DNA of 64,000 nt, from contig NZ_JABFHI010000002.1 in the NCBI RefSeq assembly GCF_013112225.1, positions 1 through 64,000 on the forward strand. Direction: 5' to 3'. Each line of letters opens with the position of its first letter. The stretch's first letter is position 1. The notes beneath the pieces are model-generated. The model ran no database searches. It was not told where the DNA came from and saw only the letters and a list, made by a program, of their open reading frames with translations. This DNA comes from Vreelandella azerica. Lineage in GTDB: Bacteria > Pseudomonadota > Gammaproteobacteria > Pseudomonadales > Halomonadaceae. This document shows positions 59,691 to 64,000 of this stretch, piece after piece. The translations under genes and the position numbers were made by a program.

Positions 59691-60071
59691 ATGTCCATGC
59701 AGATTTACCACTCGCCGATTCAACTTTATGACGTGGTGTTTGTGATCATCCCCCGCCTGGAACAGGCGCGTAACCTGGTCAATAGCACACTGGATACGCT
59801 GATCGACAATGCCAACCACCCCAAGGATTTGCTGCGCTACCGGGAGATGCAGCGCAAGCTGATGCTGGAAATGCAGATGATCCATGCCAACCTGACCCAT
59901 CTGCTGGAGCGTTATCGTGGTGATGTTCAGAAACTGCTACAAAGCCAGGGCGCTCAGGGCAACCGCGAAGCGCAACTGGATGATATGGAGCAGGATGCCC
60001 TGGCCAGGGCGAAGGAAATCTACCAGAAGGTCGTCGAGTTTCAGACCGGACGACGCAGCGTGCCCTGGTAG
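59691..60071 (+). CDS. Small helical hypothetical protein
   Basis: 126 residues, no signal peptide or membrane segment. Predominantly long amphipathic helices (PRLEQARNLVNSTLDTLIDNA, RYREMQRKLMLEMQMIHANLTHLLERYRGDVQKLL, DDMEQDALARAKEIYQKVVEF), so a coiled-coil or helical bundle is likely. Conserved-looking start MSMQIYHSPIQLYD and end GRRSVPW. No family recognised. Convergent with the amphi-Trp gene. Confidence 0.6.
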   Translation: MSMQIYHSPIQLYDVVFVIIPRLEQARNLVNSTLDTLIDNANHPKDLLRYREMQRKLMLEMQMIHANLTHLLERYRGDVQKLLQSQGAQGNREAQLDDMEQDALARAKEIYQKVVEFQTGRRSVPW

Positions 60072-60106: not shown

Positions 60107-60379
60107 TCAATTGCCCGCTTTGATTTTCGGCGCAGTATTGGCGATGGTTTTTTCTTTGATGCGCCATTTGATCTTGACTTCAACTTCCTGCTTATCGCCT
60201 TCATCGCTGGCACGCAGGGAAACCTGCAGCAGTTGCTGAGGCGACAGCACCAGATCATCTTCGCTTTCCTGAAACGCCAGATGCCCTTCATTGATGGCCT
60301 TAGCCAGGGTCACCAGCAACTCTTGGGTGGCTTCCCGGTCAAGCAGCGAGTCATGGCTGAACTTGGTCTTAGACTTCAT
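60107..60379 (-). CDS. Amphi-Trp domain protein
   Basis: 90 residues. The pattern FSHDSLLDREATQELLVTLAKAINEGHLAF, LSPQQLLQVSLRASDEG, and VEVKIKWRIKEK (tryptophan in the last strand) matches the short amphi-Trp domain proteins that accompany GAK-type kinase/ATP-grasp loci (family recalled by name). Last gene of the minus-strand operon, 54 bp after the metallophosphatase end. Confidence 0.65.
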   Translation of the reverse strand: MKSKTKFSHDSLLDREATQELLVTLAKAINEGHLAFQESEDDLVLSPQQLLQVSLRASDEGDKQEVEVKIKWRIKEKTIANTAPKIKAGN

Positions 60380-60433
60380 TGATGGCCCCCATTAAGCCTT
60401 TATCCATATAACCCTTTTCCATTTAATCCCTTG

Positions 60434-61777
60434 TTATGACGCCTTGCTCGACCGCTTCCCTTTGCGCCCAGGGCTGAAGACCTTGGCCACCGGATAGTCG
60501 CCGCTCAACCCCACCAGGCCGCGTTTTTATCAATCAACGTCGCGCCAACGCCTATTCCCTTGAGCCCTTCGCTTTTCCGCGAATTGGCATCCAGGGTGAT
60601 ATCGGCCTCGATATGAATCAGATCATTCTTGAGCGTGACCCGCTGCCCCCATGCTGATTGATATGCCCGTGCACCAGCACCTGAATACCGGCCTTTCTGG
60701 CCACTCGGGCGCCATGCTGGGTCAGCGGCAGGTCAGCCTTGCGATACTTGGTTCTGAAGGTATTAGCCAGCGAGCCATAATAGAAGCTGAACAGGTTCTG
60801 ACTCATCAGGTTCTTTTTGAACGCCCTGTTGGCATGCTTGATGCCGTGGTTGGCCAGCAGCTCCGCCATATTGTCATCCAGACCCGCATGCAGAAACAGA
60901 AAGGAGCCGCGTTTTTAACCAGCTGCATACGGCGGAAGAACCAGCCAAACTCACCGGACGGCTTGAGAAACAGCGAGCGGCATTTCATTGCCGAGGCATA
61001 TACCTGCTGCAATGAAAGCCCATTTTTGGCGCAGTGGCTCTCAAAGCTCTCGGCTTTCTTGTGCATCTTGCTGATTTCACGGTCGATGCCTTCCGGCGTC
61101 AGAAACCCCGCGGCATAGAAGGGAAAATTTTCAAACCAGGCATCGCTAGGAAACAGCGCCTCTCGGCAAGCGTCTTCACTGGGTATATCCCTGTCCCATT
61201 GGCTATCCGCCAGGTACTGGTCAAAAACCTCCTTGAACAGCGGAATGACCTTCTTGCCCATACGCACAAACAGATGCTGGCTGCCGGTATCGGTGTCGCG
61301 TTTCAGCGACAACAGACCCATCAGCAGGCGCAGGTCATGGTTACCGGCCAGCAGGGTAACATTGGCCTTGAGGCGGTAGAGGTGCGCCAGGCTGCGCAAC
61401 AGCATCAGGTTGCTGGGCCCCTTGTCCAGGCAGTCACCGCCTACGATGATTTCTGCTTTCTTGCCAAAACGGGTCAGTTCATATTCACACAGCTGAGCAC
61501 CGTCACGCTCGATGACTCCAGCGGCTAACAGGGAGGCTTCAAATGCTTCAGCATCGGCGTGGGCATCGGAGATAAACACCGCCGGTTTGGCGGGCCAGGC
61601 AAAGCGTTTTTTCTGTGCGCGGCGCTGAAAAATGGCTAACGCATCCTCATGGTTGACGGACGTCGGGTCATCCGGCCAAGGTGCCCACTCGGTTGGCAGC
61701 TGGCTCAGCACGGCATTGTGATAGGCCTGCCTGCTGACCTGCGGAATAAGGTTGAATGCTGTCATGGTCGCCATCAT
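60434..61777 (-). CDS. PPP-like metallophosphoesterase (three homopolymer frameshifts)
   Basis: About 449 residues when one base is added in each of three runs: T run 60913-60917 (LVKKRGSFLFLHAGLDDNMAEL), C run 60646-60650 (INQHGGQRVTLKNDLIHIEAD) and T run 60524-60528 (TLIDKKRGLVGLSGDYPVAKVF, ending KGKRSSKAS). Motifs of a calcineurin-type phosphatase: VFISDAHADAEAF (D-x-H), IVGGDCLDKGPSN, LLAGNHDLRLL and VHGHINQHGG. Start ATG at 61777, 3 bp after the phosphatase gene; a second ATG is at 61765. Probably the phosphatase arm of the kinase system encoded upstream. Confidence 0.75.
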
Positions 61778-61780
61778 CTT

Positions 61781-62464
61781 CTAGTCGAGTGGGTCCGCCG
61801 CCTGACGGTGCTTCCAGTTGCCATAAAGCCGCCTCCAGCCGTCGGCTTGTCTTTCAAGAACGACCGGATGAGCGTGAAACATGCTCAACCGTTTAATATC
61901 GCTGAAAGAGATGACATTAAGATGATAACAGGCATGGCGGATAGAGGCACCGTGGCCGACAACCAGCTGTATCTGGCCATCGGCAGTAGAAGGCAGCGCC
62001 TGCAGATGACGGGCAACCCGCTTACCGGCTTCCAACAGTGACTCCGCTCCTTCAAAGGGCAGCTTAAAGTGGCTGGCGGATTTCCAGCCCTCGGGCAAAG
62101 GCGCCAGACGTGGGTCATCGGCGACGATACCTTCGATTTCGCCAACGCTTAGATTGGCCACGGCCCCTACGCTGCGCTCGCACAGGGCAGAAAAGCTGTT
62201 GACGGACGGCGGCTCGGCAAAAAAAGGGGCGAGTTCCTGGCGGTAGATATCCGCCGTTTGCCAGGCTCTTAACAGCGTCGAGCAGTGAATATCGCTATGT
62301 AACCGCCACCCTGACGCGGCCAGCCAGTCGCCGAACGCACAGGCTTGCGTCTTGACCTCGGCGGCGCCTTTTGCCGTCAGTGGATAGGGTTGCAGTGCGC
62401 TGGGAGTCTCCGCTCGTTGGGTATAATCACCGTGACGAATCAGCGCCAGCCGCTGCATACTCAT
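61781..62464 (-). CDS. Histidine phosphatase superfamily protein
   Basis: 227 residues. Catalytic LALIRHGDYTQ with His11, the second His in LVVGHGASIRH, and the acid residue region LCERSVGAVANLS. ATGA overlap with the end of the HprK-like kinase (repaired) indicates tight translational coupling. The family includes SixA-type phosphohistidine phosphatases; the substrate here is unknown but its place in a kinase operon suggests removal of a phosphate placed by the kinase. Confidence 0.85.
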   Translation of the reverse strand: MSMQRLALIRHGDYTQRAETPSALQPYPLTAKGAAEVKTQACAFGDWLAASGWRLHSDIHCSTLLRAWQTADIYRQELAPFFAEPPSVNSFSALCERSVGAVANLSVGEIEGIVADDPRLAPLPEGWKSASHFKLPFEGAESLLEAGKRVARHLQALPSTADGQIQLVVGHGASIRHACYHLNVISFSDIKRLSMFHAHPVVLERQADGWRRLYGNWKHRQAADPLD

Positions 62465-63568
62465 GCCAACAGGCCTTCTGCTTTGAGCAGTTCAATGGCG
62501 CGCTCAAATCCACAGCACCGGTCAGGCGTAACACCTTTACGCCGGCCAGTTGGCGGGCGTAAAGGTGACAGGAAGGCGCCTGCTCAGGGGAAAGTGGCCA
62601 TCGCCACTCTGAAAAAACGGCCCGGGGCTTTTACGCAGGCCCTCCAGCGCCTCAGGCACTTGCTCAATATCTACGCGGCTTAGCCCGGTGGGCGCGGTGG
62701 AATCAAGCGACCAATCCAGCAGTACCAGAGTGCTCAGCTTGCCTGACAGCGCGGTTTTATCATCACCGTACAGCGCTGGAATCAGCACGTCATATTTTTG
62801 CTCAATGCCCCAGAGTTGCACAGTCGGCATCTGCCCATAGCGCTCGCGCTCAGCAGCGCTCAATAGCCCGGCAAGCCGCGCTGAACTGATCAAAGTGCCT
62901 GGGTTCACCCGGGGATGCTTGGCCACCCCCAGCACCTCGGTGGCGCATCCTTCAGGCTGGGGCTTGAACAGAATACGATCATTGGACAGAAAGCGGGCGC
63001 TGGGGCTTTCCAGGGCTTTCAGCATCAGGGTCGATTTGCCACCGCCTGAGCTGGCGGCAATCGCCGTTGCCTGGCCATTGGCCGTAAAGGCGGAGGCGTG
63101 CCCCAGCAGATAACCGCAGCGCTGCTGCACATTGAGAAACTGGTTGTTGATAAAATTGACGACCTGGGAAAAATGCCGGGTCAGATCGCCTATGGCAAGG
63201 GGGGCGTCCAGGGTCTGGAGAAACACCATGCCGGTGCGGACTTTATGAATCCAGCGACCTTCAGGGGTATCCCGATACGCTTCTTTCAGGCCCAGCGGGC
63301 TGGGTTTATTGCGCTTTACCGGCGTCCAATCGCCACCTTGGATGTTGACCTTCTGGTCGACCAGAAACACCGCTTGCACCGGCTGGCTGTCACTCGAAGC
63401 ACTTGCGGTCAGACCTGCATAATAGCGTTTGAGCAACTCAAGAATGCGCGGATTATCGGCCCATATCTGCAAGGTCAGCCCCTGAAAAGGCAGCAACAGG
63501 CGAGCGGTGCAGTTGGCCTTGAGGCTAGCCAGAGGCAGGTGCTCAAGTGCGTCAAACGTGAGGGTCAT
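62461..63568 (-). CDS. HprK-related kinase (GAK-system type B) with two homopolymer frameshifts
   Basis: About 369 residues after adding one base at G run 62555-62557 and one at A run 62506-62508 (plus strand): TFTPRQLAGVKVLRLTGAVDFERAIELLKAEGLLA, with stop overlapping the next start (ATGA). HprK-like P-loop AASSGGGKSTLML (residues ~171-183), then FLSNDRIL (HprK-like acidic box) and GVAKHPRVNPGTL. N-terminal region (ARLLLPFQGLTLQIWADNP, FLQTLDAPLAIGDL) is specific to the family. HPr kinase relatives phosphorylate a small protein or cofactor; the target here is unknown. ATG overlaps the ATP-grasp stop (TGATG). Confidence 0.8.
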
Positions 63569-64000
63569 CAGGCAGGCTCCCGGTTATCCGTCTGCAGCTC
63601 AGCCAGCACATGATCACACACTGCTCCGGCAGCATCGAGGCCGCAGCCTTTGAGCGCGCCGCTGAACCCGCCAAAAGCAGAGACTTCAAACACCACAGGC
63701 CCGTCATCGGTCAAGGCAATATCCACGGTGGTGAAGCTCAGTTCAAAACAGGCCTGTGCCTGGCGGCCAAGCGCAATCAGCTCAGGGCTGGCATGATAGG
63801 CCTGGTACTTGCCCCCACTGTGAATGGTGGTATTCCAGGTATTGGCGCCGCTCACTCGGGCATAAGTACACATGTACTCCCCACCAATAAACACCATCCC
63901 CAGATCCTGGCCGCCCAGGTTGACAAATTTCTGCAGGTAAAAAAGCCCGTGCCTGTCTCTGAAAGCATCCAGTTTGCGTCGGTTGACCGCCTCATCGTTG
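63568..64000 (-). CDS. ATP-grasp enzyme (GAK-system type), 5' part outside window
   Basis: The C-terminal 144 residues are seen, open to the window edge. Text: HGLFYLQKFVNLGGQDLGMVFIGGEYMCTYAR, AYHASPELIALGRQAQACFELSFTTVDIALTDDGPVVFEVSAFGGFSGAL. VDIALTDDG-VVFEVSAFGGF is the usual ATP-grasp ending (metal-binding Asp/Glu, here D-I-A and F-E-V-S). ATP-grasp enzymes form carboxylate-amine or thiol bonds. First visible gene of the kinase/phosphatase operon; overlaps the kinase start by one base. Confidence 0.8.
   Translation of the reverse strand, partial: NDEAVNRRKLDAFRDRHGLFYLQKFVNLGGQDLGMVFIGGEYMCTYARVSGANTWNTTIHSGGKYQAYHASPELIALGRQAQACFELSFTTVDIALTDDGPVVFEVSAFGGFSGALKGCGLDAAGAVCDHVLAELQTDNREPA

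Follow-up and report, generated by a model that had tools for sequence, protein, structure and literature searches.

A GAK-system operon with a PhoU-APH family kinase and two phosphatases in Vreelandella azerica, and its possible connection with phosphate and polyphosphate metabolism

The right end of a 64-kb stretch of the Vreelandella azerica genome (positions 1 to 64,000 of the 818,638-base contig NZ_JABFHI010000002.1; hereafter the window) carries five tightly packed genes on the minus strand, and our analysis confirmed that the operon exists. In minus-strand order they encode an ATP-grasp enzyme, an HprK-related kinase B (HprKB), a histidine phosphatase, a PPP-like metallophosphatase, and an amphi-Trp protein (Table 1). 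The overlapping or nearly abutting gene ends described in a first-pass annotation of this DNA were indeed observed: the ATP-grasp and kinase genes share one base and the two phosphatase genes are three bases apart, a spacing that is operon-like. The combination of enzyme folds read from the letters alone was also borne out, with NCBIfam or Pfam cut-offs passed. The operon continues past position 64,000 with a gene for a PhoU-APH family kinase, followed by a divergent CofD-like gene.

Table 1. Genes of the GAK locus, with positions in the window unless the contig is named
Feature	Position	Strand	Profile match and remarks
Amphi-Trp protein, 90 residues, last operon gene	60107..60379	-	TIGR04354, 58.3 bits (cut-off 31)
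Out-of-frame continuation of the PPP phosphatase gene	60618..60869	-	PPP-family profile match, 99 bits, at L003 4619-4870
PPP-like (ApaH-like) metallophosphatase, in-frame part	60806..61777	-	PF00149, 26.8 vs 21.5
Histidine phosphatase (branch 1), 227 residues	61781..62464	-	PF00300, 71.3 vs 21.7, E 1.1e-19
HprK-related kinase B, 343 residues, C-terminal end lost to frame breaks	62537..63568	-	TIGR04355, 231.8 bits (cut-off 200)
GAK ATP-grasp enzyme, C-terminal part in window	63568..64000	-	On contig to 64491, 307 residues, TIGR04356, 402.2 bits (cut-off 300)
PhoU-APH family kinase, 545 residues, sixth operon gene, outside window	contig 64469-66106	-	Overlaps ATP-grasp gene
GAK CofD-like protein, divergent, outside window	contig 66231-67445	+	TIGR04357, 443.9 bits (cut-off 340)

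The profile search proposed in the first-pass annotation placed the kinase and the ATP-grasp enzyme inside the GAK families, as predicted. All four named GAK families (TIGR04354, TIGR04355, TIGR04356, and TIGR04357) score above their curated NCBIfam cut-offs at the locus; the part of the ATP-grasp enzyme inside the window gives 191.6 bits by itself. Of the two further GAK genes expected beyond position 64,000, the CofD-like gene was found, while the XXXCH protein (TIGR04358) was above cut-off in none of 53 genomes, the window's own included, with three weak matches below it. Genomes without XXXCH include G000 and G071, both of which have all four other named families. XXXCH is thus not a constant, and hence not a defining, part of the system in these lineages. 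The locus is a GAK-system operon made up of the PhoU-APH kinase, the ATP-grasp enzyme, the HprK-like kinase, two phosphatases, and the amphi-Trp protein, with the CofD-like gene divergent from it.

Conservation was assessed from gene maps of 93 loci: the window's locus, 12 from other genomes, and 80 from a scan of species genomes that yielded at least 487 stretches related to the ATP-grasp gene at E≤1e-3, the best 80 of which were mapped. Since these 80 were confirmed against a Magnetococcus sequence, the divergent type to which the window belongs is under-sampled among them. Raw counts over the 93 loci, many of them cut by contig ends, were PhoU-APH 87, ATP-grasp 90, HprKB 82, histidine phosphatase 80, PPP 71, amphi-Trp 65, and CofD 52; three fetched loci (L048, L050, and L051) hold CofD only. 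Among the 90 loci with an ATP-grasp gene, 45 had at least 7 kb on both sides and were counted, and 45 with a contig end within 7 kb were dropped. PhoU-APH and HprKB were present in all 45 counted loci, and the histidine phosphatase, PPP, and amphi-Trp genes in 44 each. Less constant were CofD (33), a SixA-Nudix gene (30), and a Nudix gene (18). The operon genes present lay on one strand in every counted locus, and the gene set is therefore far from a chance assembly. The PPP gene also adjoins all 17 GAK-type amphi-Trp genes in 20 fetched loci. The phosphatases are thus conserved neighbors, as the first-pass annotation had supposed, but its description of them as additions to the system does not hold, since their constancy is close to that of the kinase. 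In view of their conservation across loci and genomes, the phosphatases, the kinase fusion, and CofD all belong to the GAK system.

Among 194 genomes of the window's order, HprKB was found in 17 and the GAK-type CofD in 15 (both in 14, HprKB alone in 3, CofD alone in 1). Amphi-Trp accompanies HprKB in all 17. In six genomes of one genus (g32), CofD lies at a distance from HprKB or on another contig, with both retained. The lone CofD of L050, from this genus, stands beside genes for a UgpC-type ABC transporter ATPase, a solute-binding protein, and a glycerophosphodiester phosphodiesterase, as well as GlpR- and HAD-type genes; gene lengths in L051 mirror those of L050, where alone the families were read. 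Within the window's genus, 8 of 37 genomes have an ATP-grasp enzyme above cut-off, compared with 1 of 21 genomes from the remainder of the order; the GAK-type CofD was found in 6 of 398 genomes of the phylum. The system is patchy, yet it spans Gamma- and Alphaproteobacteria, and the record titles of many of these bacteria point to a marine origin. In a tree of the ATP-grasp enzyme, the window type is set apart as a clade of its own, its long branch placing it 1.65 changes per column away from the midpoint root as drawn. Two versions of the system occur in one family, the common type being found in Halomonas eurihalina, halmophila, and almeriensis, Onishia, and Cobetia. Five plasmid records carry GAK genes at E≤1e-40; two of them (L159 and L160) are GAK operons on large Rhodobacterales plasmids of Qingshengfaniella and Tritonibacter, the latter without a CofD or Nudix gene within the stretch read. 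The system may thus travel between hosts on plasmids. One operon (L087, JABDRC010000298.1) is labeled "Halobacteria archaeon" but nests among gammaproteobacterial ones in the tree; the label is probably a binning error.

Several features of the system point toward phosphate. In the sixth-gene family, the N-terminal half matches the PhoU profile and has its six-helix fold, and it is fused to an APH-type kinase. In the plasmid records L159 and L160 the gene bears the annotation "phosphotransferase" or "aminoglycoside phosphotransferase family protein". The matches listed in our literature search included no paper that describes a fusion of this kind. The SixA-Nudix protein, of about 320 residues, is usually encoded directly after HprKB. 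Its first half is SixA-like (2rfl, 2.7e-18), and the nearest solved relatives of its second half are human diphosphoinositol polyphosphate phosphohydrolases (DIPPs; from 9.6e-13) and Ap4A hydrolases. DIPPs cleave inositol pyrophosphates, Ap5A/Ap6A, and PRPP (PMC4063336), and eukaryotic polyphosphatases include Ddp1-type Nudix enzymes (PMC6537752). The second, smaller Nudix gene lies ahead of PhoU-APH. Away from GAK, three window-type genomes have a SixA-like stretch apparently in the same frame of 491-503 residues as a CHAD domain, an apparent fusion judged from matching frame lengths (G008 C2:178396-179625, G016 C1:1781076-1782305, and G027 C9:26911-28140).

Flanking genes were clustered without prior choice; UspA-, GGDEF-, LysR-like, and other non-phosphate clusters were named by eye. 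Besides the SixA-Nudix and Nudix hydrolases, recurrent clusters were Na/Pi cotransporters with a PhoU domain (11 loci), CNNM/CorC transporters (11), ParA (8), CHAD (7), UspA-like proteins (7), and PPK1 (5). Equally frequent were an ABC-type ATPase (8), an antisense artefact (8), GGDEF-like (7) and LysR-like (7) proteins, and several clusters of 5. A Pfam check of ten cluster representatives confirmed all but one short protein without a match. Proximity was then scored in 50 GAK genomes of our own choice, mostly with long contigs, a gene counting as near if it shared the contig of HprKB and lay, as judged by eye, no more than 25 kb away. For CHAD this held in 8 of the 41 genomes with the gene (expected 0.60, P 1.3e-7), for Na/Pi in 9 of 33 (expected 0.88, P 1e-7), and for PPK1 in 5 of 45 (expected 0.61, P 3.6e-4). 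These P values assume independent genomes and a uniform expectation, with no matched control operon. The three neighbors require a minimum of 5 (CHAD), 5 (Na/Pi), and 3 (PPK1) changes when mapped onto the ATP-grasp tree, so that several lineages are involved, and their arrangements differ between lineages (L057, L060, and L114). When loci were merged at 85% ATP-grasp identity into 61 lineages, Na/Pi recurred in 8, ParA in 7, CNNM in 6, CHAD in 6, and PPK1 in 4. Genes of these kinds are found around ppk elsewhere as well, namely Ppx/GppA, Nudix, MutT, and histidine phosphatase genes but seldom CHAD (PMC8003754), and parA-CHAD in Acidithiobacillus (PMC10892726).

A reversible phosphorylation cycle, as suggested in the first-pass annotation, appears to be a fair inference from operon content. 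We propose, with a likelihood we place a little below even, that the GAK system runs such a cycle in connection with the phosphate status of the cell and its polyphosphate metabolism. Observed, as a basis for this proposal, are the gene content, the constancy of gene order and strand, the fusion of PhoU with APH in the sixth-gene family, a DIPP-like Nudix domain in two thirds of the counted loci, and the phosphate and polyphosphate neighbors in several lineages. A cycle that reads phosphate status is suggested because three ATP-using enzymes, of which one kinase is tethered to PhoU, occur in one set with a YvcK/CofD-like protein and two to four phosphohydrolases. In such a cycle, the PhoU domain would gate or position the APH-type kinase according to phosphate status. 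The APH and HprK-like kinases would phosphorylate a small acidic metabolite that the ATP-grasp enzyme extends and the YvcK/CofD-like protein binds or hands over. Reversal of the phosphorylation would fall to the histidine and PPP phosphatases, together with SixA-Nudix and Nudix where present, and the amphi-Trp protein may be an accessory or output protein. The outcome might be a change in polyphosphate storage or phosphate uptake.

Besides the assumptions behind the P values given above, a number of observations weigh against this proposal. The neighbor label is strongly clustered by ancestry: any such neighbor takes 5 changes where shuffles take 11.8, no more than 3 changes are forced by well-supported branches, and the bootstrap had not settled. 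On merging at 75% identity (35 lineages), CHAD and ParA are each left with 3 lineages and Na/Pi, CNNM, and PPK1 with fewer than 3, and several clusters that are generic or artefacts reach 4 to 6. Such neighbors are absent from the majority of the 50 genomes, and in the eight window-type genomes among them no CHAD, PPK1, or Na/Pi gene lies within 25 kb. All eight window-type loci are missing both Nudix genes, and a search of the rest of these genomes at E≤1e-20 gave no full SixA-Nudix. The window genome's own sixth protein has no Pfam PhoU match at E≤0.01, and the 47-member PhoU-APH alignment contains no window-type member. A Magnetococcus genome (G071, 99% complete) has GAK and no PPK1 match at E≤1e-30. 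Finally, a scan of 43 intergenic regions for Pho boxes gave no convincing signal (mean best score 9.23 versus 8.65 in shuffles), using a Pho-box consensus and mononucleotide shuffles and counting one region of 6.6 kb (L131) that is not a true intergenic gap; Pho-box control of the operon was rejected.

The ATP-grasp and CofD-like proteins bring to mind a different kind of pathway. CofD and the ATP-grasp ligase CofF both act on coenzyme F420, and the operon might accordingly be read as a route to an F420-like or amino-acid-tailed cofactor or metabolite, in which the CofD-like protein transfers a phosphoester-linked acid, the RimK-type ligase adds amino acids, and the kinases and phosphatases process the product, the phosphate neighbors being incidental. 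The nearest solved relatives of the ATP-grasp enzyme are RimK/LysX-type ligases (best E 2.4e-17; 11 matches at E≤0.01 in a profile search against structures), its weaker NCBIfam matches include CofF, MptN, and RimK, and CofD is kept in the genome even after leaving the operon. However, while the Asp and Glu of the RimK site, which we take to bind metal together with an Asn, are retained, the Asn of the EVN motif is replaced by Ser in 12 of 12 aligned GAK members and is present in all seven RimK-like proteins compared. The CofD-like protein belongs to the Pfam CofD superfamily (PF01933), but its only NCBIfam matches at E≤0.01 are TIGR04357 and the YvcK family; the F420 CofD is not among them and is therefore not the closer relative. 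The CofD-like protein matches five solved proteins at E≤0.001, two of them UPF0052 and the other three uncharacterized, and its profile aligns to 2ppv, presumably of YvcK type, in two stretches (35-116 and 164-388 of 401; 6e-34). The family has a conserved TPFDSGGSS stretch, and the nearest named relatives of the V. azerica protein are in Vreelandella/Halomonas (79% and 78% identity). By these profile matches, the GAK CofD-like protein is nearer to YvcK than to F420 CofD. It would also be odd for a plain biosynthetic route to include a kinase fused to PhoU together with two to four phosphohydrolases, and we hold this explanation to be unlikely.

HprKB and the amphi-Trp protein could instead form a protein-modification circuit, with HprKB phosphorylating amphi-Trp as HprK does HPr/Crh, the ATP-grasp enzyme adding amino acids, and the phosphatases reversing the change. 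Amphi-Trp is nearly as constant as HprKB, RimK is named for modifying ribosomal protein S6, and SixA is by family name a phosphohistidine phosphatase. Amphi-Trp also has an N-terminal F-x-H-x-S motif across 44 aligned GAK members, with Phe and Ser invariant and His nearly so, which is missing from two non-GAK amphi-Trp proteins. This motif is nevertheless not universal: in genus g32, His is replaced by Tyr in 4 of 6 sequences and Ser by Ala in all 6. The predicted amphi-Trp model has one helix (15-31) followed by four strands (34-72; mean pLDDT 80.4), a topology that differs from that of HPr, and the protein has no clear solved relative. Moreover, 11 of the 28 amphi-Trp genomes in the order sample are without HprKB. 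HprKB has an SGGGKST P-loop, one His (window residue 157), and an NDR motif, all three invariant across 29 aligned members, but its match to the HprK structure 1jb1 is marginal (E 0.1, residues 148-204) and ranks behind ABC-transporter P-loops. We therefore regard this circuit as unlikely. As for the phosphatases, the histidine phosphatase has a conserved RHG motif and matches a phosphoglycerate-mutase-type structure (3.4e-6). The PPP family has conserved GGDCxDKGP and GNHD motifs, presumably of the metal site; its profile is nearest to the ApaH structure 2dfj (E 0.0017), and it is ApaH-like by NCBIfam, far below the cut-off (23.2 vs 176).

A more specific form of a phosphate-linked cycle would make GAK a functional, not descended, counterpart of the eukaryotic inositol-pyrophosphate system: the three ATP-using enzymes would make a diffusible, highly phosphorylated metabolite, its level set by PhoU-APH according to phosphate status, that controls polyphosphate storage and phosphate uptake and is erased by several phosphohydrolases, among them two classes that the eukaryotic system also has (histidine phosphatase and DIPP-type Nudix). 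We consider this improbable. An ATP-grasp enzyme of the inositol-kinase type was sought and rejected, there being no ITPK or PPIP5K among the 11 structure matches, a miss that in a profile search is not proof. Anti-phage defense, or another mobile conflict system, would fit the patchy distribution and the plasmid records, but it is highly improbable given that eight proteins had no PADLOC match at E≤0.001 and that no defense gene was seen among the recurrent flank clusters, mostly judged by eye.

The window's copy of the operon contains frame breaks. The PPP frame stops early and resumes in another frame, and the kinase is shorter than the 369 residues found in each of seven other window-type genomes, in which PPP has 446-452 residues. 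Alignment with a sister genome (G034, 94.1% identity over 7,895 bases) revealed five one-base gaps (three in PPP, two in the kinase), of which four adjoin a homopolymer run of five bases or longer. No gap was found in the histidine phosphatase, ATP-grasp, PhoU-APH, or amphi-Trp genes, and CofD differs by six bases, in frame. Because of the equal-base runs, and because other nearby frames look split, the breaks are most likely indel errors of assembly, and pseudogene decay was set aside as less likely. A PutA-type frame (contig 67731-71201, L003 11732-15202) is in pieces, one of 595 residues matching the first half of the family only and the remainder judged by eye, as is a transporter frame (contig 73229-74862, L003 17230-18863; by eye). 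The assembly seems to carry many small indels. Convergent with amphi-Trp, a plus-strand gene (window 59691-60071) encodes a 126-residue protein without a family match; it has a counterpart in the closest relative (L046 4531-4911) and was not found in the other 11 loci of the window genome's 12-locus comparison set.

The GAK system has already been named by NCBI. In agreement with the first-pass annotation, our searches of open-access literature on the GAK system, amphi-Trp, and HprK-related kinase found no function in print. A search combining HPr kinase with polyphosphate kinase, Nudix, and ATP-grasp also found no paper on GAK function, and matches for ATP-grasp with HprK were unrelated by title and the start of the abstract. 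Within the literature searched, three observations appear to be new: the PhoU-APH gene as part of the core, the DIPP-like hydrolase, and the setting among polyphosphate genes. The constant PhoU-kinase fusion, the frequent DIPP-like hydrolase, and the polyphosphate neighbors of some lineages provide a concrete place to look, namely phosphate starvation and polyphosphate. Should the proposed phosphate-coupled cycle prove correct, phosphate control in bacteria would gain a layer of kinases and phosphatases and possibly a new phosphorylated messenger.

Compared with known systems, the closest likeness is to GAK as defined in NCBIfam: the same six operon genes occur in the same order in the plasmid records L159 and L160. 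The GAK naming omits the PhoU-APH gene and the two phosphatases, all equally constant, and the window type differs from common GAK by its long branch and by being without the SixA-Nudix and Nudix genes. Families found in the Streptomyces ppk-pptA(CHAD)-nudix and Acidithiobacillus folD-ppk-parA-CHAD operons (PPK1, CHAD, ParA, Nudix, and histidine phosphatase) adjoin GAK in some lineages, whereas the consulted portions of those reports make no mention of a GAK kinase, ATP-grasp, or CofD-like gene. The PhoU fold of the sixth-gene family is common to PhoU and to PhoU-domain Na/Pi cotransporters, but in GAK it is fused to an APH-type kinase. The CofD-like protein resembles YvcK/GlmR (UPF0052) in its alignment with 2ppv and its NCBIfam match but is distinguished by its GAK-specific family and TPFDSGGSS stretch. 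Lastly, the eukaryotic inositol-pyrophosphate enzymes (DIPP/DDP1 Nudix proteins and PPIP5K, with its ATP-grasp kinase) share with GAK the combination of an ATP-grasp enzyme and a histidine phosphatase. The GAK ATP-grasp enzyme is, however, RimK/LysX-like and the window type has no DIPP-like gene, while in the common type it is to the DIPPs that the Nudix half of SixA-Nudix is nearest.

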